Virus record (IMG/VR): IMGVR_UViG_3300037488_003551
Location: 108,893 to 172,892 of that record
Strand: one strand, 5' to 3'
Origin: a virus
DNA: 64,000 bases
The notes beneath the pieces were generated by a model. The model was not told the origin of the DNA and searched no databases. It saw only the letters and a program-made list of their open reading frames with translations. Both the position numbers and the translations under genes were made by a program. Of the stretch, positions 11,460 to 55,460 are shown piece after piece. Each line of letters opens with the position of its first letter. The first letter of the stretch is position 1.

Positions 11460-11503
11460 GAAGGAGCTTTTTGGATAATCATATAGATTACCGTAGCCCC
11501 TTC
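11460..11503 (-). ncRNA. Candidate omega RNA (reRNA) 3' hairpin of TnpB
   Basis: On the minus strand, arms at 11503-11495 and 11468-11460 pair over 9 bp (one G-U). Inside them a second stem pairs GGTAATC with GATTATCC around a short loop. The structure spans the tnpB stop codon. IS605 omega RNAs are made from the 3' end of tnpB and the right end, and the bases just beyond act as guide. The position fits that rule, but the RNA boundaries are not visible from sequence alone. Confidence 0.4.
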
Positions 11504-12690
11504 GTGTTTGTTTCCTGCTTCCTCGTTTTAAGTTTCGTTTTAGTCGGTTTCCGAATTGAAGACCGAATAACACCAGAGCTCGAAACTCCACAGGCTGTTA
11601 CCGCTGAACTAGCGGCCAAATTTTGCAGATTTAGGGCTGCGTTTATATCTCGGTGTGCTGCATATGCACATGTAGGACAAATAAATATCTTATCTCGTTT
11701 AAATTCTTCATGTATTTCCCCACAGTTGGAACAAGTTTTTGATGAGGGATAGAATCTATTAGCAATTACAATTGTAGTCCCCGTTAAGGCAGCTTTATAT
11801 GTTAATTGACGTCTAAATTCATAGAATCCTAAGGAAGAAATTGCGGGTGCGAAGGACCTATTAGCCAGCATTCCACGTACATTTAAGTCTTCGATACCTA
11901 AAATTGCGTAGGTAGATGTAAGATTTTTAGTTAGCTTGTGCAGACAGTCGGTACGTAGACAAAAGATTCTATAATGCTGGTTTCTTAGTTTGTTCAGAGC
12001 CTTTAGTTTATTATTAGAGCCCTTTTTCTTCCGCGAGAATTGACGATTTAAACGAGCTAGTTTTTTGAGTTCTAGAGATAAGCTAGGAGGTTTGAGTATT
12101 ATTTCGCCTGTTGAAATCGTTGCAAGATGCGTAATACCTAAATCTATACCCGCTATTCCGTGGTTATTGTGAGTAGCTCGGTTATAGGACTCAGGTAATT
12201 TTACTAGTATGCTCACAAACCAAAATTCAGCCTTTCTAGAAATGGTTGCGGAGAGCATCTTTCCGTTAAAGCGTAAGGCTTCGAACATTCGTATTTTCCC
12301 TATTTTAGGTAATTTTATGTAATTATTTTCAACTTTAAAAGTACCGGGTCCAGTATCGGCTCGGAATGAGTCGTGTACGCCCTTGCGTTTAAATCTAGGA
12401 TACTGACTTTGCTTCTTAAAAAAGCGGTTAAAAGCTTGTCCTAGATTTAATATTGCATATTGAGGAGCAGCTTTTGTTACGTTCTTCATCCAAGGAAATT
12501 GTATTTTTTTAATTTTGTTTAATTCTCGCAGTAGTCCCAGCGCTGTTGTGCTGAGACCTTTTGCATGATTATTGTTCCATTCCTCCAGTCCCCAATTATA
12601 AGCTTTGCGGGCTACCCCGCAGGCTTGTATCATGTATGTTTTTTGAATGTTATTAGGATTGAGGCGTATCTTATGGGCTAAGATTGGCAT
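11488..12690 (-). CDS. tnpB: TnpB RNA-guided endonuclease (IS200/IS605)
   Basis: 400 residues, typical TnpB length. The N-terminal HTH/wedge region starts 'MPILAHKIRLNPN'. All three RuvC catalytic residues are present: D183 in 'GIDLGITH', E267 in 'LGIEDLN' and D348 in 'HRDINAALN'. The target-strand-loading zinc finger is intact (C320, C323, C338, C341: 'CSNCG...CPTC'). The C-terminal 'RKPTKTKLKTRKQETNTK' is the usual basic tail. TnpB is the ancestor of Cas12 and cuts DNA next to a short TAM, guided by omega RNA, which helps retain the element. A complete active site argues for a recent or maintained insertion. No tnpA is nearby. Confidence 0.9.
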   Translation of the reverse strand: MPILAHKIRLNPNNIQKTYMIQACGVARKAYNWGLEEWNNNHAKGLSTTALGLLRELNKIKKIQFPWMKNVTKAAPQYAILNLGQAFNRFFKKQSQYPRFKRKGVHDSFRADTGPGTFKVENNYIKLPKIGKIRMFEALRFNGKMLSATISRKAEFWFVSILVKLPESYNRATHNNHGIAGIDLGITHLATISTGEIILKPPSLSLELKKLARLNRQFSRKKKGSNNKLKALNKLRNQHYRIFCLRTDCLHKLTKNLTSTYAILGIEDLNVRGMLANRSFAPAISSLGFYEFRRQLTYKAALTGTTIVIANRFYPSSKTCSNCGEIHEEFKRDKIFICPTCAYAAHRDINAALNLQNLAASSAVTACGVSSSGVIRSSIRKPTKTKLKTRKQETNTKGLR

Positions 12691-14190: not shown

Positions 14191-14700
14191 TCAGTTGTAG
14201 GCGCGTTTCGGGGGTCGGATGGTTCCTTTTGGACTTTGAACAGCTAGCGCAGCTTTTTGCATGGGTGGTCGTCCTCTCCTCTTCGGAGCTTCGTCGACCT
14301 CTACCGCCTGGGTAGTGGGCTTACGACTGCGCTTTGGCGGCTCTTCTGCCACGTCGAGCTTCGAAAGGGGAGGACGCCCTCGTCTTTTAGGCTCTTCGAC
14401 CGCTTCAACCTGTGCCACGGGCTTACGCCCACGTCTTTTAGGCTCTTCGACCACTTCAACCTGTGCCGCGGGCTGACGTCCACGCTTTTGAGACACTGGA
14501 GCTGGCACTGGCTTTCCCTTTTGCACCTTCTGCGGTTCTGAAGCAGAGCGTGCAATAGGCATTTGGGCTGCCAAAAGGATTTTGGTCAGCTTGGTTCTCG
14601 TACCACAGGCTTTGCACGTCCCGTACTCGCCCGGGAGGGCCACGACTCGTTCCGTGCATTTCGGGCAAGAGAAGATTTTGGAACCTTTGGGACGGGGCAT
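14191..14700 (-). CDS. Zinc-ribbon plus multi-AT-hook DNA-binding protein
   Basis: 169 residues, AAGGAG site before the ATG at 14700. The N terminus has a zinc ribbon: 'FSCPKCTERV...GTCKACGTR' (CxxC...CxxC). The rest is low-complexity with repeated AT-hook cores, each preceded by E-x-x-KR: RGRQP, RGRKP, RGRPP, RSRKP and RGRPP, about every 16-18 residues (~80-155). AT hooks bind the minor groove of AT-rich DNA and are common in eukaryotic HMGA proteins but less so in phages. Likely a DNA-architecture or transcription factor of the phage. Its short spaced repeats at DNA level make it a likely place for repeat-number variation. Confidence 0.8.
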   Translation of the reverse strand: MPRPKGSKIFSCPKCTERVVALPGEYGTCKACGTRTKLTKILLAAQMPIARSASEPQKVQKGKPVPAPVSQKRGRQPAAQVEVVEEPKRRGRKPVAQVEAVEEPKRRGRPPLSKLDVAEEPPKRSRKPTTQAVEVDEAPKRRGRPPMQKAALAVQSPKGTIRPPKRAYN

Positions 14701-17129: not shown

Positions 17130-17708
17130 ATGTCAGACATGCCCCGAATCGGTGAAGAAGGATTTATTGGAACGACTGCAAAGGCCGCGAAGATTGAGGA
17201 AACTCTTTCAATCATGTCCGAGAAGCAGCCCACGGAGAAAAAACTCACGGAAGAGGAGCAGTACGTAAAAGGTCTCGAGGAGGCTGGCATCTCGGTCGCG
17301 CAGGCGCGGGTCATTATGGAAGCCATGTTCGTAAACGGCTTTTACGAGGAGGAAATTTACCTCGGCGCTAATACGTACGTGACGCTGCGCAGTCGTCAGT
17401 ACTTTGATACGATTCGCGCAAATCGTAAGCTCGAGGCCGACCGCGTTGAGTACGTGGCATCGATTCAAAACGTCGTAAATAGTTACAACACGGCGGCATC
17501 ACTCGTAAAATACGCGAATCGGGATTTTAGCGTTTCGAAGCCACATGACGATGTGGACCAGCAGGTTATCGAGGATTCGTTCACGAAGCGGTTGGACTTC
17601 TTGGAGCGCTTGCCCACGCAGGTCACCATTAAGCTCATGCAGAAGACTTTCGAGTTCGATAAGAAGCTCATGGCTGTCTTTTCGGACGGAGCCCCCCAGG
17701 ATTTTTAA
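17130..17708 (+). CDS. Tail assembly chaperone, short form (gpG-like)
   Basis: 192 residues, AGGAGG 8 bases before the ATG. Acidic helical protein without enzymatic motifs. It sits directly before the tape-measure gene, and its end overlaps a -1-frame open extension that has no start of its own. That is the arrangement of lambda G/G-T, where short and frameshifted long forms coat the tape measure during tail assembly. The name rests on position and frameshift architecture, not on sequence similarity I can see. Confidence 0.75.
   Translation: MSDMPRIGEEGFIGTTAKAAKIEETLSIMSEKQPTEKKLTEEEQYVKGLEEAGISVAQARVIMEAMFVNGFYEEEIYLGANTYVTLRSRQYFDTIRANRKLEADRVEYVASIQNVVNSYNTAASLVKYANRDFSVSKPHDDVDQQVIEDSFTKRLDFLERLPTQVTIKLMQKTFEFDKKLMAVFSDGAPQDF
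17690..17708 (+). other. Programmed -1 frameshift site
   Basis: The 0-frame reads ...GCC-CCC-CAG-GAT-TTT-TAA. A tRNA on TTT (17703-17705) can slip back one base onto an identical TTT with the stop codon in the A site, giving the -1 frame. The C run GCCCCCC just upstream (17691-17697) is a second possible slippery stretch. The exact slip codon cannot be told from sequence. Confidence 0.65.
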
Positions 17709-18055
17709 ATACGGCGGCGGGGCAAGTTCGAGCTTATGCCTACACGCATAACGCCCCGCTGCCCGAGACCGGGTCGTTTCATGAGCAAGTTCTTGCGGAG
17801 TCGATTCTCCGTGAGAGAAACTTGCAGTTTGCGAGCGTGGGCTTGATTGCGCGCTTGATTGGGTTGATGGGTGGCATCCCCGATAAAGTCTTGCAGCTCC
17901 ACATGGATCTGTTTAAGGAAGAGCTCTACCAGTTACGCTATAATAGTAAATACGTATCTGCGACTGAGCGTTGGCGAAAGATGATGCGAGACAAGGCACA
18001 GCACGAGGCTCGGCTCATGGAACGAGTTGCTAACATGACGTCTGACGAGGGCTAA
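17705..18055 (+). CDS. Tail assembly chaperone, frameshift extension (gpT-like)
   Basis: 116 codons in the -1 frame relative to the upstream gene, open from before its stop codon to 18055. The sequence is clearly coding from the first codons ('NTAAGQVRAYAYTHNAPLPE') through 'LIGLMGGIPDKVLQLHMDLF' to 'RVANMTSDEG'. Only a weak TTG (17822) could serve as an internal start, and it would discard ~40 good residues, so fusion to the 192-residue protein (total ~308 aa) is the best reading. It ends 9 bases before the tape-measure start. Confidence 0.75.
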   Translation, partial: LNTAAGQVRAYAYTHNAPLPETGSFHEQVLAESILRERNLQFASVGLIARLIGLMGGIPDKVLQLHMDLFKEELYQLRYNSKYVSATERWRKMMRDKAQHEARLMERVANMTSDEG

Positions 18056-18064
18056 AAACAGAAG

Positions 18065-21000
18065 ATGGCTGATAATAGCGGTTACAACTCGATGCAGGCA
18101 AACCTGGGCTTGATTCCGGGCGCGGGTCCGCAGGTCCAAGTGAAATCTCCCGCGCAGGCTGCAGCTGAGTTGTCGCAGCAGGCCTCGATGCAGATGCAGC
18201 AGGCGCAGCAGATGATGCCTGTCGTGCGTTCGAATACTGCTTCGTTTTCTTTCGGTCAGCAGTATCAGCAGCAGTTCCAGGCGGCGCAAGCGCAGTCGAA
18301 CATGAACCCCTACGCCGCGGGGATGTTCGGGTCTTTCACTCAGCCTTCGGCTCTGCCTTCTCCGTTGATGATGACGCCGGCAAGCACCGGGAACTTTCGC
18401 CCACCCATGCCTTTTGGCAGCGGGGCGGGGGGTTCTCCGATGTCGCCGATGGCGGTTATGCCGATGTTCCAGACGCCATTTACGCCCCAGCTTCCGACAC
18501 CGAGCTTCCGTACTCCCTGGGAGCAGGAGATACAGCAGCGCGAGCTCCGGGCTGACCAGCTGTACTCCATGACGTCGCAGGCGCCGCGGTTCGGCGGTAT
18601 GGCGGCGGGGTATGGGATAGGTGCGATGGCAGGGGCGGCGGCCGGCAGTCGGTTCGGGGCGGTCGGGCGCGGTGCGGGCGCGGTGCTCGGAGGTCTGCTC
18701 GCGCACTACTCGGGGTTCTCCGAGGGCATGGGCGCGGCGGGGATGATGCCGTTTCGTCCTGGGCGTGAGGGACACGAGATGGGCCTTTCTGCCCAGCGAA
18801 TGTCCCAAGATTGGGTAGTAGGAGGTCCGAACCTTCACGAGCTCGGGCGGGGGCTTAGCCGGGGCTCTTCGATGGCGCTGGGTACCGGCATCCAGCGCAT
18901 GGCTGAGTCGCAGAGCTTCAAGGCCGAGACCGGGGGCATGTTCAATCGTCACGACCTGATGCAGATTATGCAAAAATCTGGTCAGGCCGGCATGATGGAT
19001 ATGGACCAAGGTGTTGGTCGGATTCAGCAGCAACTTCGGGATGTTAGTCGGACGGTGAGGCGCTTTATGGAGCTCACCAACGACCCCGATGTGACGAGTG
19101 TAATTAAACAGATGGGGCAGATGCATTCCTTGGGAATGTCTGTCCCGGAGATTGAGAAGGCCGCCTCGAGCATGCGTGCGTACTCGCGCGCCGCGGGGAC
19201 GACAGTTAGCGGATTGTACCAGCAAGGCCTCCCTGGAGCGATGACCTACCAGGGCTTGGGGCTCTCGGGTGGCGCGGGTCTGCAGTACGGCATGTACTCA
19301 GCGGCGGCGGCGCGGCAGGCAGTAGCTTCAGGAACTTTCTCGAATGCTGAGCTTTCAATGTTCGGCGGAGTTCAAGGTGTAGCACAGAGGAACATGCAGG
19401 CGCAAGGGGCATTTATGTCCATGCCGATGTTCGGTGCTTCCATCAGCTCTTACGGGGCTGGCGGCTGGGGTATGAACGCGGGGTCTCTCGCGCGCATGGG
19501 CGGGGGCGGAGCGGGGCCACAAGGGATGGTCATGGGCGCGGTCTCCAACATGAACGCTGCGTTGGGCGCAGGTGGCATTGGAGCTCTGGCCATGATGCCG
19601 CTGCAGCAGAAGCAGATCATGGACCAGGCCGCTCGGACAATGACTCCGTACGAGCAGACGGCCATGCGCTTTTCGATGGCGTCCGATACCGGCAAGTTCC
19701 TTGGGCTCAAGGGCGCGGGGGGGTTCGCGGCGGGCGCGCGGATGCTCTACGGGGATGAAGTCGCGTCGCAGATGATGACCGAGGCGGCGAATCCAGCTTA
19801 CTGGCGTGCCCAGAAGGCGATGATTCAGCGAGAGCGGGATGACATCGCTCGGTCGCAGCGCCAGGACATTATGGATGCGACACCCGGCGCTTTTTCTAAG
19901 ATGGCGATGGCTACGGGAGTTGCGGTCCGAGACGCGGCGTCTCCTATTGTCAATCCCATTACGGGTGCGGTCGAAGCTGCTGGACGTGGGTGGAGGTCGC
20001 ACGTTACGAATCCTCTGCAAGAGTTCAGTGATATGGCTTCAGGGGTTACGACCTACGATCAGACCGACGCGATTTTAGGTGCGGACCGTTCTACGAAGGC
20101 TGGACGTAAGAGTTTTAGAGCTCGGCAGGCATTTCGCGCCAAACATGGAAAAGCGACGAGTAGTGCGGGTGGATTAGGAATGACTGGGCGTCAGGGATAC
20201 GACGCTTTTATGCGCACGGCGTATGGTGATGAAAGTATTGGGGGAGGTTTGTCGGGGTTGGGATTGGACACTGCGAGTACACTGGCAGGGTTTGCATTAC
20301 CAGCGCTTGGTATGGCGGATATGGCTCTGAGTTTTGCGGGAGTAGATACGGGAGAAGCTGTTAGAGCTGGTCTTGGGAGTGCCTATCTGGCCTACGCTGG
20401 AATGGCTGGAGGAGAGCATAAGACTGCTATTCAAGCTGTACAGGACCGGGACAGGCGCTTGGCGGGGACTTTCCGCGGGGCGGCGAGTCGAACGATGCAG
20501 AGCTCGACGGACGTTTATGCGGGATTGGAAAAATCTCTTGGCTTAAAAGGTGGACAAGGCCTGGATTCAATGATCTCAGCTGGAAGGGCGTTAGCTCGTG
20601 CGGCTGAAGGCAAATCAGGCATTCTTGATGCGACTACTGGACGTATTTCGGACGAGACTATTCGGTCTTCACTGGCTGCAGGTATTGCGAATGCTACAGG
20701 TAAATCTCAAGCAGCAGTAGAAGCTTCGTTGCAGGGAATGAGTGAAGAGCAATTACGGGGATTAACCGAAACAACCCTTGCAGCGGGACAGCGTTTGACT
20801 ACAGCAGAAGGAAGAAATGTTTTTCGTTTATCGGAAGAACGCGCGGCTGGAGGTGTTGGACGAAGTACGATGGTTTCGGTTAGAGACCAGATAGCTGGTA
20901 TTAAAAATCAAATGGGAGATATCGAAAAAGGTTGGGGTATTGGAGCGGGTGATACTCGAGATGAATTACGTAAATTAGTTGCGAATCGTTCTCCTGCTGA

Positions 21001-21700
21001 AATTATGGCTGCTATTTCTGGAAAGACTAAAAAAGGAAATGCAGCTTGGACTGCGCGTATAAGAGAAGAAACACAAGCTGAATTGGGACCCAAAGCTACT
21101 AAGGCTCAAGTTGATGCTGTAGTTGCTCAACGCATAGACGATATGGGCAATTTGGATATGTCCAAAGACTTACAGACTAAAGTTTCTCGCATGGTTGAGC
21201 GCGGAGATGCGGGTCTCGCAGAACTTACGGATTACATAAATAATGTAGGAGCTCTCCAAGGTGCGGAATATGCGTCCTCTGCTTTTAGTGGGATGAGCAA
21301 GGCTACTGGATTAAAGATTGAGTCTGAAGCAGATTTACGAGCTCTTTCCGCTGGAGATATTCAGAAATTAGGTAAAGATTCACGTTATGCCAATCTAGCG
21401 GGAATGCTTTCGAAGCGTAAAAAAGCTACGGGTGGAGCAGCGGAGCAACTTCAGACAGATATCTATGAAGAGCTTGCTAATATCGGCTCAAGCCTTTCGT
21501 CTGAGTCTAACGTCTCTGCCACAGGCGAAAAAGCTCGGGGTCTTACGACGTCTGAAAAGAAACTCTCAGAGGTTGCAGACCAGATGTCAGCTTCTTTTAA
21601 GTATTTCACCGAAGATGCTGCGAAGAATTTTAGAGATGGTGCCGTAGCTTTTAACGAAGCAATGAGGACAGGACAACTCAAATCAGGGATACCAGACTAA
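18065..21700 (+). CDS. Tail tape-measure protein
   Basis: 1211 residues, the longest tail-module gene after the chaperone pair. The N terminus is Gln/Met/Ala-rich and low-complexity ('QQASMQMQQAQQMM', Gly/Pro-rich to ~170). A Gly/Ala hydrophobic stretch at ~180-215 ('YGIGAMAGAAAGSRFGAVG') and another at ~735-755 could insert in a membrane, as in other tape measures. The second half is helical and charged. No lysozyme or peptidase motif seen. Tape measures set tail length and are ejected ahead of DNA. Composition changes within the gene: GC-rich to about 20.05 kb, clearly AT-richer after. Confidence 0.85.
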   Translation: MADNSGYNSMQANLGLIPGAGPQVQVKSPAQAAAELSQQASMQMQQAQQMMPVVRSNTASFSFGQQYQQQFQAAQAQSNMNPYAAGMFGSFTQPSALPSPLMMTPASTGNFRPPMPFGSGAGGSPMSPMAVMPMFQTPFTPQLPTPSFRTPWEQEIQQRELRADQLYSMTSQAPRFGGMAAGYGIGAMAGAAAGSRFGAVGRGAGAVLGGLLAHYSGFSEGMGAAGMMPFRPGREGHEMGLSAQRMSQDWVVGGPNLHELGRGLSRGSSMALGTGIQRMAESQSFKAETGGMFNRHDLMQIMQKSGQAGMMDMDQGVGRIQQQLRDVSRTVRRFMELTNDPDVTSVIKQMGQMHSLGMSVPEIEKAASSMRAYSRAAGTTVSGLYQQGLPGAMTYQGLGLSGGAGLQYGMYSAAAARQAVASGTFSNAELSMFGGVQGVAQRNMQAQGAFMSMPMFGASISSYGAGGWGMNAGSLARMGGGGAGPQGMVMGAVSNMNAALGAGGIGALAMMPLQQKQIMDQAARTMTPYEQTAMRFSMASDTGKFLGLKGAGGFAAGARMLYGDEVASQMMTEAANPAYWRAQKAMIQRERDDIARSQRQDIMDATPGAFSKMAMATGVAVRDAASPIVNPITGAVEAAGRGWRSHVTNPLQEFSDMASGVTTYDQTDAILGADRSTKAGRKSFRARQAFRAKHGKATSSAGGLGMTGRQGYDAFMRTAYGDESIGGGLSGLGLDTASTLAGFALPALGMADMALSFAGVDTGEAVRAGLGSAYLAYAGMAGGEHKTAIQAVQDRDRRLAGTFRGAASRTMQSSTDVYAGLEKSLGLKGGQGLDSMISAGRALARAAEGKSGILDATTGRISDETIRSSLAAGIANATGKSQAAVEASLQGMSEEQLRGLTETTLAAGQRLTTAEGRNVFRLSEERAAGGVGRSTMVSVRDQIAGIKNQMGDIEKGWGIGAGDTRDELRKLVANRSPAEIMAAISGKTKKGNAAWTARIREETQAELGPKATKAQVDAVVAQRIDDMGNLDMSKDLQTKVSRMVERGDAGLAELTDYINNVGALQGAEYASSAFSGMSKATGLKIESEADLRALSAGDIQKLGKDSRYANLAGMLSKRKKATGGAAEQLQTDIYEELANIGSSLSSESNVSATGEKARGLTTSEKKLSEVADQMSASFKYFTEDAAKNFRDGAVAFNEAMRTGQLKSGIPD

Positions 21701-45218: not shown

Positions 45219-45702
45219 TACCCCTCCAGAAGTGGTTCAGGCAGGAGTTTGTCCCGGGAGTGCAATCCCCTACGATGAAGTGGTGTGAGCGTGCACAGTA
45301 AGTGCACGGAGGTTCGAAGATACCGTTTTCAAGGAAATAGAATTTCCCTAGTCCGTGCCCGAGGGTCACGCTCTTTGCTTTAACCGATTTACGTGAGTAC
45401 TGGTAAGCATATTTCTTTTCTTTTGTAATGTAAGTGGGGACCATAATACACGCGTTGCCGTGGAGTAAGAGGTCACAATATTCTTCAATTTCTTTGGTGC
45501 CCTCTTTCTTCACGATTATAGAAAGATTCTTAGACGGAAAAATTACCCATGCCGTCTTGAATAGATTTGCCAGTTCTGTAAACACCGTGGACGTTACGAT
45601 GTAGTAAACATTCCATGGTATCCGATTGGGTTCCAGAGTCGAGACTCGGTGCGTGGTGTAGCGGTCAGGGCGTTTGACTCTGATAACAGTTACGTCAGTC
45701 AT
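45202..45702 (-). CDS. CxxC protein of the RT operon (166 aa), unknown
   Basis: Overlaps the VWA gene by 8 bases and the RT start by 17, so it is translationally coupled on both sides. It is alpha/beta, with a C-terminal 'FEPPCTYCARSHHFIVGDCTPGTNSC', a Cys/His cluster (CxxC, HH, C, C) likely to bind zinc. No family recognised. The tight coupling makes it a component of the same system as the VWA protein and RT. Confidence 0.7.
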   Translation of the reverse strand: MTDVTVIRVKRPDRYTTHRVSTLEPNRIPWNVYYIVTSTVFTELANLFKTAWVIFPSKNLSIIVKKEGTKEIEEYCDLLLHGNACIMVPTYITKEKKYAYQYSRKSVKAKSVTLGHGLGKFYFLENGIFEPPCTYCARSHHFIVGDCTPGTNSCLNHFWRGIERRL

Positions 45703-47182
45703 CGATACTCACCACGATATCTTGCATGGCGGGGTCTGCTTTTCCTTCTTTACAGATAACCCAAATGACGGGGCAGGCGGGTTTTAGGCGAGGTAAGGGG
45801 CCTCCGTCTTTACTGGCTACGGGAGCAAATCCGTCGGTGAATATGACCATGAGGTCTGTCCGGGCAAGTGGCTTCGTGGGTTTTTCCCTAGTCCAATCGG
45901 AGTTGGTGTCTGTTCCTAAGACACGCCTAAATGGAGCGCAGAAGTCCGTGCCACCGTAACCGTGGCGCTGACGTAAGGACCTAATAATTTCTTCGATTTC
46001 TGCATCCGTCGTGGTTCGGGTAAAGGTCTCTTCGTATTGGATACCATGGTCGAAGTGGATGACTTGGAGCTCAATTCCTTGGAACTGGCGTAGGATGGCG
46101 ACTTGTTCGCTTACGAATGTGCGATACGCATCGTTGTTTACCGAGCCGCTGGTGTCGGTACAGCTCGTAATTCGGAATGTGAAGTCGTGCGTATATCCTG
46201 GGAAAGGTTCGATGCCATCTTCTATTACCGGGTATAATGCGATGTTGGGTTGCGCTGTTGTATGCACGAGTTTGTTGCTGATAATGCTCTTTATGTGATT
46301 TCGAAGGACGACTGGCCAGGGAACTTTTGGTTCCGTTAATAGCTCTTCGATTACGTTCTTCATGCAGCCTGGGACGGTTCCGCGGCAGCGATTAGTTTGC
46401 TCTACGGCAGAACGAACGGCGCTGGTTGCGCTGCGCTGTAGGTCATTGGCAAGACGCTCGAGCTCACCACCGGACATATTTCGAAGGCGGCTGAGAGCTT
46501 CTCGTATCTGTTCTTCCATTGAGTTGGGTTTTTCACTCTGTTCGTCTTTGCTAGATTTCCCGTCGTTGTCAGCGTCCCCTTCGCCTTCTTCGTCGTTTGG
46601 CTCACCAAAGAAGTTGGCGTTTATCTCCATGCCTTTATCTTTGATTGCTTTTTGAATCTCATTGGACTTGTCTTCATCCTTCATAAGCAATAGAAAGTAT
46701 TCTTCCATGCTGAGGTTACGGGGAAGTTCGAACTTCTCAGGGAATGGACGCTCGTCATAAACAATCTGAAAGGCTTCAACTTTTTTGCCAACGGTTAATG
46801 GTCGTACTGCCAAATCGTTTACGGTCAGGTCGGCCGCCAGGTTGAGTGTCTTCCATATTGTTTGGAGCTTGGAATCCGAGGACATACTTTGCTGACCCCC
46901 AACCATGCGAATCATGCGCTCGTAGTGTCGGAACCCTAGGTGTGCTGCTTCGTGTATCAGACCTGCGAGTTGCGAGGGGATTACGCGCTTATTGTATTTT
47001 TCAAGGTCGATACTTAAGCAGAATCTTCCGTGTTTATCCACACGTACAGCCAGAGCATAAGGCATGGTTGTATATTCTCTGCGACAGCTATTAAGGATGC
47101 GCCCAAAGAAATTATTATCTCCCCGGGTGCTGCAGAGCCAATAGAAAGCATTCTGTAAGGGGGTGCGGTCTAGGGGTGCCAT
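45695..47182 (-). CDS. Metallopeptidase-like (HExxH) / VWA protein, MoxR partner
   Basis: 495 residues, AAGGAA site. N-terminal zinc-peptidase-like domain: 'LIHEAAHLGFRHYERM' (H77, E78, H81, H86), matching DUF2201-type proteins. An acidic central region (~195-245) is probably disordered. C-terminal VWA-like domain (~320-480): MIDAS 'TDTSGSVNND' (DxSxS), 'HFDHG', and 'GYGGTDF', all present. Proteins with this two-domain layout are encoded beside MoxR AAA ATPases and are thought to act as co-factors in protein remodelling or metal insertion; the substrate here is unknown. First gene of the RT operon. Confidence 0.85.
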   Translation of the reverse strand: MAPLDRTPLQNAFYWLCSTRGDNNFFGRILNSCRREYTTMPYALAVRVDKHGRFCLSIDLEKYNKRVIPSQLAGLIHEAAHLGFRHYERMIRMVGGQQSMSSDSKLQTIWKTLNLAADLTVNDLAVRPLTVGKKVEAFQIVYDERPFPEKFELPRNLSMEEYFLLLMKDEDKSNEIQKAIKDKGMEINANFFGEPNDEEGEGDADNDGKSSKDEQSEKPNSMEEQIREALSRLRNMSGGELERLANDLQRSATSAVRSAVEQTNRCRGTVPGCMKNVIEELLTEPKVPWPVVLRNHIKSIISNKLVHTTAQPNIALYPVIEDGIEPFPGYTHDFTFRITSCTDTSGSVNNDAYRTFVSEQVAILRQFQGIELQVIHFDHGIQYEETFTRTTTDAEIEEIIRSLRQRHGYGGTDFCAPFRRVLGTDTNSDWTREKPTKPLARTDLMVIFTDGFAPVASKDGGPLPRLKPACPVIWVICKEGKADPAMQDIVVSIDD

Positions 47183-49050: not shown

Positions 49051-50298
49051 TCAGTTGTTGAGTCGAACGAATCGGTCCACAGCATCGTGGGCTTTTTCTG
49101 AGTGTTTTAGGTGAGCGCGGAATCGGTCCTTGTCTTTAACGAAGCTGTTGATGAGGTTTGCGCGATAGGTGGGTTTTCCGTATTGATTTGCGGTAGGGGT
49201 AATGTTGTCCGTAAACAGTGCTGCGTATTCCGCGGCACAGGTCTCGAAAAACGTGAAGATTGCGGGGTAGGCCTTGTCGATGTCGTATTCAACATCGAAC
49301 ATGTAATTCAAAAGGTTATAGACAAATTCCACCAGCCTGGGCTGTTTTCCAAGGTCTTCTAACTGTTGGAATTTACGCATGAAATGCTTAGTATCTGTTA
49401 GGAATTCCACAGGACTGAGGATAACGTTATTGTCCTCGATAAAGGCTTGGAATTGAGACGCCATTGTTAGGTTGAGGGATGACCCGAATCGGCTGAGAGC
49501 TCGGCTGCTTTGTAGAGAAATATCCGCGCTCTCCAAAGCATAGCAGTCGAGGGAAATTGTTTGCCACGTAGCGGGGCAAGCGAAAGGTCTGTTGTTCTTC
49601 TTATTCTGTTCGTCGTAAAGCATGGTCGGCGCCGTTGCGATAAAGGACCGGACGTGCTCGTGACAAGAGAGACCGTTTTCAGGAATCACGGGAGAGGTGC
49701 GGTCGCTATAATGGAATTCTCGCGTACGAGCGTGTTGCAACCATTCGTCAGGAGAGTAGATGGCGTAAACAAACCGAAGCCTCCGACGGAGGGCGGCGTT
49801 GTTTTCAATTTGATTGACGACGTAGGACCCGGTGCTGGGGTTCATCATTGCTACGATGAGGCAGTCGTCCGAGAGCTTGTAGTCATAGAGAAAACGGTCC
49901 TCGGCCAGGGAGTAGAACATGGCGATGGCGTGCTGAGCGCCTTGGTTGATTTCGTCGAACGCGAGGATGCAGCGTTCTCCTTTTCGCGGAAGACCCGTGG
50001 GAACTTTGATACGAAAGAAGCCTTCTTCGGCGTCTCGGACCGATGGCACACCTGCGCTAAGCAATCCGAATTGAGCGGTACGGATATCGCAGACACGCGC
50101 CTTGAGCTCGCGTGCAACTTGGTGGACGACTTGTGATTTACCTAGACCGGCCTCGCCCACGATGCAGTAGATGCCTCGGAATAAGCGCATATTGTAATTT
50201 AATTTAATCTCTTCTTTGATTTCTCCGATGGTCATTCGTGGGACGTCGTATAGCTCTGCGTACTCTTGATTGACTGATTTGCTATTGTTTTCCGCCAT
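49051..50298 (-). CDS. MoxR-type AAA+ ATPase
   Basis: 415 residues from the ATG at 50298 (CAGGAAA site); the longer frame to 50343 would run through the terminase start. Walker A 'GEAGLGKSQ' (~48-56), Walker B 'ILAFDEI' with the acidic pair, sensor-1 'AMMNPSTG', arginine cluster 'NNAALRRRLRF'. The core is a MoxR/ChlI-type AAA+. Members work with VWA proteins; the only VWA protein in the window is encoded ~1.9 kb downstream on the same strand, so the two probably act together despite the inserted rightward genes. Confidence 0.85.
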   Translation of the reverse strand: MAENNSKSVNQEYAELYDVPRMTIGEIKEEIKLNYNMRLFRGIYCIVGEAGLGKSQVVHQVARELKARVCDIRTAQFGLLSAGVPSVRDAEEGFFRIKVPTGLPRKGERCILAFDEINQGAQHAIAMFYSLAEDRFLYDYKLSDDCLIVAMMNPSTGSYVVNQIENNAALRRRLRFVYAIYSPDEWLQHARTREFHYSDRTSPVIPENGLSCHEHVRSFIATAPTMLYDEQNKKNNRPFACPATWQTISLDCYALESADISLQSSRALSRFGSSLNLTMASQFQAFIEDNNVILSPVEFLTDTKHFMRKFQQLEDLGKQPRLVEFVYNLLNYMFDVEYDIDKAYPAIFTFFETCAAEYAALFTDNITPTANQYGKPTYRANLINSFVKDKDRFRAHLKHSEKAHDAVDRFVRLNN

Positions 50299-50320
50299 TT
50301 TCCTGATATCCTTTTCTTGA

Positions 50321-51946
50321 ATGAAGAACGTTTCCGCCACCATTAGCGAAGTGTGTGAAGCCTGGTTAAACCTAAACGGAAAGCCTTTCCGCCTGGATAT
50401 GTGGCCAGCCCATCGGACCTTTTACGATGGGCTCTGGCGCCGAACGTTGTTAAAAACAAGTCGGCAGGTCGCGAAGTCCACGACCCTAGCCAACTTCGGG
50501 ATTGCTGAGTGTGCTCTTATACCACATTTTTCCGTAATGTTTGTAACGCCCTCCAAAGAGCAGACGATGCGCTTTTCGAATTCTCGCGTTACAAAGGTTA
50601 TGCGTTACTCTCCGATTATCAGAAAGAAGTTTTTGAGTACAGAACTTTCGGACCGTGTACTCCACAAGCAGTTCACAAATGGGTCGGAGATGGTCTTTGC
50701 GTATGCGTTGGATGACGCAGACCGCCTTCGAGGCCCATCCACTGACCGCAACGTGTACGACGAGGTGCAGGACCTGCTATATAATCCTGTAATTACGGTA
50801 GGTAATGAAACATTGTCGCGTTCTAAATATGCGTACGAGACGTATGCGGGGACGCCAAAGACAATGGAAAATACCATTCAGTATCTATGGGAATTGAGCA
50901 CCCAGACCGAATGGGTCATGAAGTGCTCAGGTTGCGGTAAATACCAGTACGCGGCGTCCGAGAAGTGCATTGGCCTTAAAGGAATGATTTGCCTAAAGTG
51001 TGGTACGTACTTAAATCCTTTTGAAGGTCAGTGGGTTGATATGGCAGAGTCCCTCCCGGCTGACTCGCGGGTAGAAGAGGAAGACCGTATTAAAGGTTTT
51101 CATATTTGTCAGCCATCCATGCCCGATTGTAATCCTCTCGCTGTTGAGAAGATGGGATACAATCAAGACCTCGTGCGTTTCGCCTCCAAGCAATGGAAAG
51201 ACATTTTATATAAGCTAGAAAACCTTCCTCCGACGACTTTTAGAAACGAAGTTTTAGGAATCTCCGATGCGCTTGGCGCGCGCATGATTGCGAAGGAGGA
51301 GCTCGAGGCTCTCTGTACGGGGCCGGCGCTATCGGCTACTCCATCTCCCGCGGGCATGGCGGGGGTTACTACGACGGTAGCGGGAATTGATTGGTCGGGT
51401 GGAGGCACCTCCGGCGTATCGAGGACTGTTTTGTGGATTTGGGGTCTGAACACGCAGCTAGGGTTACTTCGTTGTTTGTTTTACAGAATTTATCCAGGTA
51501 TAAACCCGGTCAATTCCGTCGAAGAAATTATTCAAATTTGCAATATGTATCGAGTTGCGTACGCGGTGGGTGATGCTGGAGAGGGGAGTCTCCCGAACGA
51601 CGTGCTTCGAAACGCTCTAGGGCCTAATCGCATGACGCAGGTCCAATACGGAGCGTATGCGCAAGCGTTGCATTGGAATGGGCAGGATAGATACCTCTTA
51701 GATCGAACCACAATGATCGACAACTACGTGATGTTGCTCAAGAAAAAGATGGTCCAATTCGGTCCGTTGGATGAGATGACCATTCCCATCGCAGATATTT
51801 TGAATGAATACGAAGAGGTGACGATGTTGGGGAGGAAGGTGTGGAGACACTCACCGCAGAAGCCCGATGACTGTCTCCACGCGAGTCTTTTTGGATGGCT
51901 GGCGTCCAAGATTGTTATGAACGATTTGAAGTTCTGGAAAGACTAA
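50321..51946 (+). CDS. terL: Terminase large subunit
   Basis: 541 residues. ATPase: 'KTSRQVAKST' (K45-T54) as Walker A, 'NVYDEVQ' (144-150; D147/E148) as Walker B. A zinc-ribbon-like insert, 'CSGC...CLKC' (C202, C205, C224, C227), lies between the halves. RNase H-like nuclease: D357 in 'AGIDWSGGG', D418 in 'AVGDAGEG', and D516/D517 in 'KPDDCLH', the usual DDD pattern. It packages DNA into the prohead. No good Shine-Dalgarno before the ATG at 50321. The start lies only 22 bases from that of the leftward MoxR gene, so the promoter must overlap coding sequence. The small subunit was not identified. Confidence 0.92.
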   Translation: MKNVSATISEVCEAWLNLNGKPFRLDMWPAHRTFYDGLWRRTLLKTSRQVAKSTTLANFGIAECALIPHFSVMFVTPSKEQTMRFSNSRVTKVMRYSPIIRKKFLSTELSDRVLHKQFTNGSEMVFAYALDDADRLRGPSTDRNVYDEVQDLLYNPVITVGNETLSRSKYAYETYAGTPKTMENTIQYLWELSTQTEWVMKCSGCGKYQYAASEKCIGLKGMICLKCGTYLNPFEGQWVDMAESLPADSRVEEEDRIKGFHICQPSMPDCNPLAVEKMGYNQDLVRFASKQWKDILYKLENLPPTTFRNEVLGISDALGARMIAKEELEALCTGPALSATPSPAGMAGVTTTVAGIDWSGGGTSGVSRTVLWIWGLNTQLGLLRCLFYRIYPGINPVNSVEEIIQICNMYRVAYAVGDAGEGSLPNDVLRNALGPNRMTQVQYGAYAQALHWNGQDRYLLDRTTMIDNYVMLLKKKMVQFGPLDEMTIPIADILNEYEEVTMLGRKVWRHSPQKPDDCLHASLFGWLASKIVMNDLKFWKD

Positions 51947-51947
51947 A

Positions 51948-54900
51948 TTACGCCGCGGCGTGTTCAGCTGTCGCTTCCTCCGCGAGGGCATTTCGAATTT
52001 CCAAATCCATGTAGTCGTCTTCTTCGCCAGTGGTGAGCTCGGGGTTATTAGAAAGAAACGAGGGTATGGACATGAGGTCGCCGTAATTGGCGCCGACTTC
52101 GACGTCCCATGAGAAGGGGACTGGTAGCCAGGGGTATTTTTTGGCGACCTGTTTTACGCCGTAGTCCTGGATAAACGCGGGCATTTGTTGGACATATTTC
52201 TTAGGGATTTGGAACACGAGAGAGTCGTGCACCGTATTTAGCATATTTCCACCGAAGTCATTTTCAATCACGGGGTCGGTAGTGCAGAAGACGTCCAGAA
52301 CCATTTCGGCACTGGTGTTCTGAATTTTGAAATTGACCGCCTGCCGTTTTGCGCGGCCGCGCAGAAATTGAGGAAGATTTTGAAGGTTGAGGTGCCGGCG
52401 CCGACCGAGGAAGGTCTCCACTACGCCGATCTGTTGAACCTGCCTTTCGGTGATGTCGATGTAGTCCTTGATGGATGGAAACATATTGAACAGAGTTCGG
52501 ATAATGGCTTCGGCCTGGTTTTCGGGGATGCCGACAATGCCGGCAATCTTCTTGGGAGCGGCGCCGTAGAGAATGCCGAACACGACGCGCTTGATGTTCT
52601 TCCGGAGGGCGTCCAGCTGCTCGCCATAGGCCTTGTCCATCTTCTTGAGCGTATCCCTCGCCTCGAAGTCTTCGTAGCTCCAGGCGTGGTTCTGGTCGAT
52701 GCCTATGGCAGTGAGAACCGAGGCGTACTGAGAGGGTTTGATGTCCTGCAGCACGTTCTCGACCTTGTAGACGGTAGAGGCGAAGAAGCTGTGCGGGTCC
52801 ATTCCGTCGTTGAGAGCTTGAATCAGCGCTTTGTCACGGCTGTAGGCGGCGTAGACCCGGACCTCCGCAGCCTTGGCGTCGGCGTTGATGATGACAAAAT
52901 CCGGGTGGGTAGGAATGAATATACGCTTAATATGATACTGGTGAGGGGGTCTTCCAATTCTTTTTGGAAGGTTCTGGAGATTCTCTTCACTGGAAGAGTT
53001 ATGGTTAACGAAGCCGTGTGCGATGTAAGAATGATCTGTTTCGACTTGGATATCCCAGACTTCTTGTTCTCCAATGCTTTGAATAGATTCGATGTTGCAA
53101 GAGGTAATCTTAATTTTTCCTTCATGAACGTACTCAATTGCAACAGGGTGCCCAACGGAGAGTTGGGATAGGGGAATAAAGGAAAAAGGTGTTCCAGGAG
53201 TAGTGGGGGCGTAAAATCGATGTTCTTTAGTAACGTCGATGGTATTACCAGAGCTTGCAGTTACGCGAAACATCTCCTCTTTTCCCTTGTAATAACATCC
53301 CAAGATTCGCTTGTAACGATTTCGATGCGTACGTATTCTTGCGTCCTTATGGCGCCGTTTAAGGTCTAATTCAGAAATAGGCGTGACGCCTACAGTTGTC
53401 TCTAGAAGGGTATTCTTTCCAACGCACAACCGCGCCGTAGCCGTCCCGTGCTGGTGAAAATTCGAGTGCATTCGCCCATCTTCGCGACTCAGTACTTCGA
53501 TATTTTCGATGAATGTAGTCCGGGCTTTGCTGATTCCTCGAAATTCTAGAATAGCCTCACTGAGTGCACATTTATGCGTATTGGTTAGGAACTTGAGGAA
53601 CTTGGCGTCGGTAGAGATAGCGCCCTTCTCCGTGCGCGGGGGCTCAATCTTGCCGGCGTAGCAGATGAGTTCACCCGTCCCAGGCTGCAGGTAGCCGGTC
53701 GAGAAGAGGGCCTTGGCAACGTGCTGAGTGCTGGCGGGGTTAAATTCCGTCAGGCCGATGGGGAGCATATCGGTGAAGATGGTGGACGAGCTGGCCAGAT
53801 AGCTGTCCATGTCAGCCTGCAGCTTGAAGATGTACTCCCGGTCTACAGCCATTCCGTGGAGCTCCATCTTCGCCAGAATCTTGGTCGTGGGGAGGATGCG
53901 CTTGGCCATGTTATACAGCGGAGGGTTCGGATGCTTGAACAGGACTTCTCCAATCCGCTTGGAGACTTCTTTTGTGCCTAGCAGGAAGGCGGATCGCTTC
54001 TTGGCCAGAGACTTACTTTCTTCCGTGAGCTCTGTGCGCTGTTGGGCCGAGCAGCGAAGAGTCACATCGGCATCGAAGGCGGCGTACTTCATCAACTCTT
54101 GTAGAGGGATGTTCTTGTAACCGTCATCGGTCTCGAGCTTCTTTTCAAGGCGGGATTGTTTTGGGGCGTCATCTGCTTTCTTTTTCTTGGTGCGCTTTGG
54201 CTTTACCTTCTTTAAGAGTTGTTCTTCTTGGGAGGCTTCAGAGGTATCAGCAGGAGTGAGCGCGTCGATATCTAGTCTTCCCGCGTAGATTTCTTTAAGC
54301 TCGTCTTCGTAGGCTGAGAATTCGGGCAGGCGAAGACGCGTAATATGTTTTAAGCCGTAAAAACCTTTTTTGTCTTCTTCAATGAGATGCTCTCCTAACA
54401 TTACATCCCAAGAAAGATTTGCAACTTTAAAACCTTTGCGCTCGAATACTTTGAGGTCGTATTTAGCGTTGGCAAAGATTTTGGGTTTTACACAAGTCAA
54501 GAGGCGTTCGAGATGAGGGCGTGCGCCCTCTAAGTCGATGCTGGATTCTGGATGCTCGAGTTGGATAGCGGCAGATTTCCCTTTATCCCAGCAGACAGAT
54601 ACCATGAGGAGCTGCAGTTTATCGCGGTGAGGATAGAGGGTATTAGTTTCAGTATCTAGCGAGATAGGAGAGTGCTCACGCGCTATTCCAGGTATGGAGT
54701 AGTTGACGATTTCCGTTACGAGTTTAGAGAGCTCTTCTACTGTACGAGGATACTGATACTCTTCAGAGAGACGCGATAGAACAGAGCGTTTGGCTTCAAG
54801 TTCTCCGACTTTATTATCTTGGACTAGCTTTAAAAAGACCTCGATTTGCCGTGCGAGGATTTCAGTGTATCCAGCTTTAGTTGCTAATTGACGCTTAGAT

Positions 54901-55460
54901 AAAGACACGAAAATGTATGCGCGTCGGCCTTCTACGTTCATCTCAATTACTTTGCCGATGACGTCTGTGTACTTTTTGAATTGGACACCGAGCGACTTAA
55001 GGGCAGTAGCGCCCATTACAAAAATGCAGATTGGCTTTTCGGGGGTAGCATATTCAAGGAGTTCTGCCCGGAGATTAGGCGCACACGCAACCATTTCTTT
55101 TGCGTTGGGTTTTTCTACCTGGCATCGAACAGCGTAAGTAAAACGCCCCTCGAGCTTATCAAATCGGGTGGCAGCGTTTTGCATCGCTACGAAAATAGTT
55201 CGTTCGATATCGAACGTCCAGCCTGAGTGATTTTCTTGTTCGGTAAATCCGCTCAGGAAGGGAGACTCTCCCACGCAGAAGTAATCGGTATTAGCGGGTT
55301 CTCCTCCTTTGCTGACAGTATAGTGTTTTCTCTGATAGCTTGGACACGCTGGGCAGCCAGCGTGTTTCCAAGCGTTTGATATGGTACAGGTATAACAGTC
55401 GGTAATTATGTCTACGACGACCTCAGCTGTACCATTCTTCTTCGATGTCATCTGGGGCAT
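51948..55460 (-). CDS. UDG-like / 3'-5' exonuclease / family A DNA polymerase, with intein
   Basis: 1170 residues (extein 1027). AAGGA site 9 bases before the ATG. The N-terminal ~20-215 resemble the uracil-DNA glycosylase superfamily: Cys pairs 'CYTC' and 'CPAC', 'FCVGESPFLSGF', and 'CAPNLRAELLEYATPEKP'. Proofreading exonuclease: 'SLDTETNTLY' (~269), 'NAKYDLKVF', 'YAAFDADVTL', all catalytic acids present. Polymerase: motif A 'ADAKAAEVRV', motif B 'KRVVFGILYGA', motif C 'NTVHDSLVFQI'. A UDG-like N terminus on a phage polymerase recalls SPO1-type enzymes. The conserved 'GTATARL|SSSEENLQNLP' site is split by a mini-intein (next entry). Overlaps the primase gene by 38 bases. Confidence 0.92.
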   Translation of the reverse strand: MPQMTSKKNGTAEVVVDIITDCYTCTISNAWKHAGCPACPSYQRKHYTVSKGGEPANTDYFCVGESPFLSGFTEQENHSGWTFDIERTIFVAMQNAATRFDKLEGRFTYAVRCQVEKPNAKEMVACAPNLRAELLEYATPEKPICIFVMGATALKSLGVQFKKYTDVIGKVIEMNVEGRRAYIFVSLSKRQLATKAGYTEILARQIEVFLKLVQDNKVGELEAKRSVLSRLSEEYQYPRTVEELSKLVTEIVNYSIPGIAREHSPISLDTETNTLYPHRDKLQLLMVSVCWDKGKSAAIQLEHPESSIDLEGARPHLERLLTCVKPKIFANAKYDLKVFERKGFKVANLSWDVMLGEHLIEEDKKGFYGLKHITRLRLPEFSAYEDELKEIYAGRLDIDALTPADTSEASQEEQLLKKVKPKRTKKKKADDAPKQSRLEKKLETDDGYKNIPLQELMKYAAFDADVTLRCSAQQRTELTEESKSLAKKRSAFLLGTKEVSKRIGEVLFKHPNPPLYNMAKRILPTTKILAKMELHGMAVDREYIFKLQADMDSYLASSSTIFTDMLPIGLTEFNPASTQHVAKALFSTGYLQPGTGELICYAGKIEPPRTEKGAISTDAKFLKFLTNTHKCALSEAILEFRGISKARTTFIENIEVLSREDGRMHSNFHQHGTATARLCVGKNTLLETTVGVTPISELDLKRRHKDARIRTHRNRYKRILGCYYKGKEEMFRVTASSGNTIDVTKEHRFYAPTTPGTPFSFIPLSQLSVGHPVAIEYVHEGKIKITSCNIESIQSIGEQEVWDIQVETDHSYIAHGFVNHNSSSEENLQNLPKRIGRPPHQYHIKRIFIPTHPDFVIINADAKAAEVRVYAAYSRDKALIQALNDGMDPHSFFASTVYKVENVLQDIKPSQYASVLTAIGIDQNHAWSYEDFEARDTLKKMDKAYGEQLDALRKNIKRVVFGILYGAAPKKIAGIVGIPENQAEAIIRTLFNMFPSIKDYIDITERQVQQIGVVETFLGRRRHLNLQNLPQFLRGRAKRQAVNFKIQNTSAEMVLDVFCTTDPVIENDFGGNMLNTVHDSLVFQIPKKYVQQMPAFIQDYGVKQVAKKYPWLPVPFSWDVEVGANYGDLMSIPSFLSNNPELTTGEEDDYMDLEIRNALAEEATAEHAAA
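52998..53426 (-). other. Mini-intein (143 aa) in DNA polymerase
   Basis: Residues 679-821. Starts with Cys ('CVGKNTLLETTVGVTPISEL', block A), has 'NTIDVTKEHRFY' (block B, T-x-x-H), 'EVWDIQVETDHSYIAHGF' (block F) and ends 'VNHN' (block G) followed by Ser+1 of the extein. The length leaves no room for a homing endonuclease. All splicing residues appear intact. Insertion is inside the highly conserved TGRLSS-like segment of the polymerase. Confidence 0.92.

Follow-up and report, generated by a model that had tools for sequence, protein, structure and literature searches.

When a gene for a 192-aa protein is followed by a -1 frame that is open but lacks an obvious start codon, and that frame ends just before a much longer gene, the question arises whether the two frames are translated as one protein and, if so, by what signal. 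This arrangement is found in the stretch analysed here (the window), a 64,000-nt part of a 172,892-base IMG/VR virus record. Frameshift control of this kind is known from many phages, and the junction is best explained by programmed -1 shifting of ribosomes, as in lambda G/GT, with a probability of about 0.92 given the comparative sequence evidence and the structure models described below.

Gene layout and homologous junctions

The short gene, a putative counterpart of lambda G as judged from its open reading frame, homologues and predicted fold, occupies positions 17130..17708 of the plus strand, and its 3' end reads GGA GCC CCC CAG GAT TTT TAA. The -1 frame is without stops from past a stop at 17660 until the stop ending at 18055, and the extension itself (17705..18055, plus strand; 116 codons plus stop), the candidate counterpart of lambda T, is homologous in eight other loci. 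Translated together, the two frames would yield a predicted frameshift fusion of 308 aa ending at 18055, in which a peptide across the junction would span GAPQDFLNTAAGQVR. The next gene on the plus strand (18065..21700; 1211 aa) is presumed from its position and size to encode the tape measure protein. The original prediction of a 116-codon -1 frame that continues the 192-aa gene and ends 9 bases short of the tape measure gene was verified in its coordinates.

Nine homologous junctions were compared, comprising that of the window and those of eight further loci (L002, L010, L012, L014 and L015-L018). With the 192-aa protein as single query, scanning the viral contigs gave no match; relatives were obtained once the extension or alignments served as query, and the last such scan returned no new loci. 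The extension-based scans gave L002, then L012 and L014, then L015-L018, and L010 was located in the record of a relative of the hub protein. The relatives were selected by peptide motifs of the extension (for L010, by the short protein), and because no motif overlaps the slip site, the conservation of the junction is not a selection effect. Identity to the window ranged across the eight loci from 36 to 80% for the short protein and from 33 to 93% for the extension, with L002 at 93%. All eight relatives have a short gene ending in GAP[QKE]DF, a stop, and a -1 extension of 116-131 codons, followed by sequence with the N-terminal tape-measure-like motif of the window (for L002 the beginning is truncated at the contig edge). 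The tape-measure-sized ORF after the extension measured 1206 to 1249 aa in the relatives examined, with a common N-terminal motif. Among 50,697 deposited phages the extension had no match, and the hub-like protein had partial, distant matches only.

Putative slip heptamer, adjacent stop and downstream hairpin

An 11-nt core, AGGATTTTTRA, read in the frame xAG GAT TTT TAA, is invariant in all nine junctions. It holds the putative slip heptamer G_GAU_UUU (17699..17705, plus strand), in phase in 9/9, and directly 3' of it a frame-0 stop, TAA in the window (17706..17708, plus strand). This stop is TAA in eight of the nine junctions and TGA in L016, so it is kept even though its base varies. The presence of NAG, GAT and TTT in all nine would have a chance probability of about 1e-8 under per-genome codon usage and assumed independence, a figure that must in truth be larger because of the shared ancestry of the junctions. 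Synonymous conservation along the fused frame peaks at the junction, at 2.14 times expectation versus 1.20 for the whole gene (ancestry ignored), and the motif GGATTTTT[AG]A occurs a single time across both strands of the 64-kb window.

The original prediction had named a TTT-TAA slip site with an upstream C run. The T run and the stop are indeed present, but the conserved unit is larger, consisting of G_GAU_UUU plus the immediate stop. The C run (GCCCCCC) likewise exists in the window but is not conserved in the relatives, where the same position reads GCGCCCC, GCCCCGC or GCTCCAC, and it is dispensable; slippage on this run was rejected because it is broken or unable to re-pair in L010, L012, L016 and L018. 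A Shine-Dalgarno-like GGAG at 17688..17691 (plus strand), 11 nt 5' of the Phe codon, is a possible stimulator. The relatives are purine-rich at this site (GA[CAG]GG), but the protein motif [DE]-G also fixes these bases.

Alignment and folding delimited a hairpin of 11 bp that begins 7 nt past the heptamer, with its 5' arm at 17713..17723 and its 3' arm at 17753..17763, both on the plus strand. In all nine junctions the same alignment columns hold such a stem, with at most 11 bp, and 87.9% of its cells are paired, versus 33-57% after a shift of the partner by 1-3 columns. Three of the pairs are altered on both sides in a compensatory manner among the nine sequences, the covariation score was reached by 1 of 500 shuffles, and RNAalifold recovered eight of the pairs unaided. 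For the eight pairs nearest the stem base, 70 of 72 are formed, versus 42.0 (sd 3.2, maximum 53) under a null of 1000 synonymous recodings of the -1 frame. The hairpin of L018 is the weakest of the nine, and its MFE is not significant. Pairs outside the main stem, proposed by RNAalifold from five sequences, were gone with nine and were discarded. The spacer of 7 nt falls inside the range of 5-9 nt that usually separates slip site and structure (PMC5009743), and the hairpin is consistent with a candidate stimulatory structure for -1 shifting.

Under the frameshift reading, the majority of ribosomes would stop at the TAA at 17706 and release the 192-aa tail assembly chaperone, and a minority would be delayed by the hairpin that starts 7 nt beyond G_GAU_UUU, where the tRNAs for Asp and Phe would move one base back in what we infer to be a tandem slip. 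Translation would then resume as UUA AAU ACG and produce the 308-aa fusion, and the conserved stop that comes next probably lengthens this delay. After such a slip re-pairing would be perfect for Phe on UUU and poor for Asp on GGA, and this poor re-pairing in the P site counts against the reading. It is there that G_GAU_UUU departs from the strict X_XXY_YYZ pattern, as it does in PEMV, in whose RNA2 the same G_GAU_UUU is a tested shift site and re-pairing in the A site matters more than in the P site (PMC4737148).

The same signal could also act through the peptidyl-tRNA only, as in the original prediction, with tRNA-Phe slipping from UUU to the overlapping UUU before the stop in the A site is read (U_UUU_UAA), in the manner of a 'shifty stop' that works backward. 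The fused protein would be identical, with D-F-L-N at the junction in either case, this mechanism would be compatible with the invariance of T5 and the immediate stop in all nine junctions, and stop-dependent shifting has precedent (review PMC5009743). However, such a slip would leave G17699 unneeded, although it is kept in 9/9 junctions where NAA would code for the same residue, and it would reduce the spacer to the hairpin to 4 nt versus the usual 5-9. We therefore consider slippage by the peptidyl-tRNA only to be doubtful, with the tandem slip preferred.

Other routes to the downstream frame

Production of two separate proteins, with ribosomes entering the downstream frame at an internal start or restarting past the TAA, is very unlikely. 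Potential starts do occur: the first ATG, GTG or TTG in the -1 frame of the window is TTG at 17822, 117 nt past the first -1 codon, and elsewhere the first is TTG at 36 nt in L014, TTG at 18 nt in L018, and ATG at 12 nt in L010 and L012. Their positions differ, however, and none is common to the nine junctions, on which ground an internal start or reinitiation was rejected; moreover, the in-frame ATG of L010 and L012 sits within a hairpin arm, and the conserved heptamer would be left unexplained. The -1 frame of the window is start-less over its first 39 codons, in agreement with what had been predicted, and these codons ahead of any start are conserved as protein: of the codon changes between the window and L002, 9 are synonymous and 2 nonsynonymous. 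Judged from these substitutions, the -1 frame is constrained at the protein level from the slip point onward.

Slippage of RNA polymerase on T5, by which some transcripts would gain one base or lose two, is if anything slightly less probable still. The T run is present and the fused protein could be almost identical, but five T residues are short for transcriptional slippage, and the kept G17699, the immediate stop and a strong hairpin at the spacing of ribosomal frameshifting would all go unexplained. Lastly, a one-base change would join both frames, but the relatives refute both an artefact of sequencing or assembly and the decay of a single gene, as nine separate contigs have the same junction with both frames constrained; the probability of this explanation is negligible.

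Proposed chaperone identity and comparison with known systems

The proposal that a tail assembly chaperone gene carries a programmed -1 frameshift is upheld by the nine homologous junctions, by the hairpin that they share and by matches of the predicted fold to known chaperones. Searches of Pfam and PHROG returned no convincing family match for either the short protein or the extension, and sequence profiles revealed no link of the short-protein family to known chaperones. The 192-aa protein was modelled with AlphaFold2 at a mean pLDDT of 77, and its best fold match in the PDB, a weak one, was the HK97 tail assembly chaperone (E 0.24, prob 0.63). Among the best viral fold matches was gp181 of Bacillus phage G (prob 1.00, target TM 0.69), which the fold search gave without function and which the phage G annotation identifies as a tail assembly chaperone; the chaperone name played no part in this match, which makes it useful as an independent check. 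The tail assembly chaperones of Rhodococcus phage Finch (prob 1.00) and Gordonia phage Teatealatte were further viral matches. The models suggest a chaperone-like fold for the short protein, which belongs to an undescribed family. The extension was modelled as a four-helix structure that had no match in the fold search, and the tape measure candidate had no family match. The Pfam tail-sheath model PF04984 had no match in the whole record, and a contractile tail is therefore not claimed.

Presumably the short and fused forms both help to build the tail tube around its tape measure. The lambda proteins gpG and gpGT are ligands of the tape measure protein, and it is through the T part that the tail tube protein is bound (PMC5009743); from position and fold we infer, by analogy, a similar division of function. 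The window shares with lambda G/GT (and with HK97, P2 and others) a short gene, a -1 overlap, an extension directly before the tape measure gene and, presumably, a low level of fusion. In contrast, the lambda slip site is GGGAAAG with a stop further on, whereas the window has G_GAU_UUU with an immediate stop and a strong conserved hairpin, and sequence similarity to the lambda proteins is undetectable. A lambda-like position combined with a slip site other than GGGAAAG had been anticipated, and this layout is kept in the window and its eight relatives.

Bacillus phage G (JN638751), the gp181 of which matches the short protein in fold, offers a second parallel. Its gp182 is annotated as the joined longer form of gp181, right before the tape measure gene, and the junction (L028:10275-10292) reads TTA AAA AAC TAG, such that the heptamer A_AAA_AAC is followed at once by a stop, as in the window. 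The heptamer is nevertheless a different one, the extension has about 250 aa versus 116 in the window, and the phage G chaperone has no significant sequence similarity to that of the window.

A further likeness in the signal was with the polymerase frameshift of umbraviruses and dianthoviruses, which also has a hairpin within a few nt 3' of the site and, close by, a frame-0 stop that affects efficiency, the PEMV heptamer being identical to that of the window. Changing the nearby stop of PEMV into a sense codon lowered frameshifting by 72% in vitro, and RCNMV and BYDV have a stop directly 3' of the slip site (PMC4737148). PEMV RNA2 and RCNMV differ in belonging to plant RNA viruses translated by eukaryotic ribosomes, in using the signal for an RdRp gene, and in having a larger, bulged hairpin with long-distance pairing. 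By this analogy the signal of the window would resemble that of the umbraviruses and dianthoviruses in its working, not in membership. Our literature search found no report linking GGATTTT or UUUUAA with tail frameshifts, an earlier phage example being possible, and the reports of GGAUUUU frameshifting that were found concerned a general review and RNA viruses of eukaryotes, a published phage case likewise being possible.

With these observations a family of large uncultivated phages, whose chaperone and presumed tape measure proteins have no match in any named family, would gain a tail assembly chaperone, and a 308-aa protein is predicted that gene callers split. The observations also add to the slip sites G_GAU_UUU plus stop, which may escape searches based on classical heptamers, and suggest that phages and plant RNA viruses have apparently converged on the same recoding signal. 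We would give even odds to the broader proposal that a large, apparently bacterial, tailed phage lineage has fixed G_GAU_UUU, stop and hairpin together, with the stop as a working part of the signal and the host's termination efficiency tuning the chaperone ratio. As the immediate stop is also found in phage G, the role of termination in -1 shifting would be directly testable in bacteria.

The phage of the window encodes a lytic transglycosylase domain and an amidase domain, both of which indicate that its host is a bacterium. The related contig L009 (QMZE01000001.1; 78,677 bases, the same extent as IMG/VR record 3300014914_000004) is filed under an Archaeoglobales genome, and since the peptidoglycan-hydrolase domains suggest a bacterial host, this bin label may be wrong. 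Several other genes on the minus strand of the window deserve mention. A single ORF at 51948-55460 encodes DNA polymerase A together with an intein splicing domain and, at its N terminus, a stretch resembling uracil-DNA glycosylase, and a 169-aa protein at 14191-14700 has repeated KRRGRPP/KRRGRKP motifs that are AT-hook-like. The genes at 45695-47182 and 49051-50343 encode a DUF2201 metallopeptidase/VWA protein and, in its vicinity, an AAA ATPase, an arrangement similar to a MoxR-VWA pair, and the protein at 11488-12690 appears, on reading its sequence alone, to be TnpB-like and of the IS605 kind.
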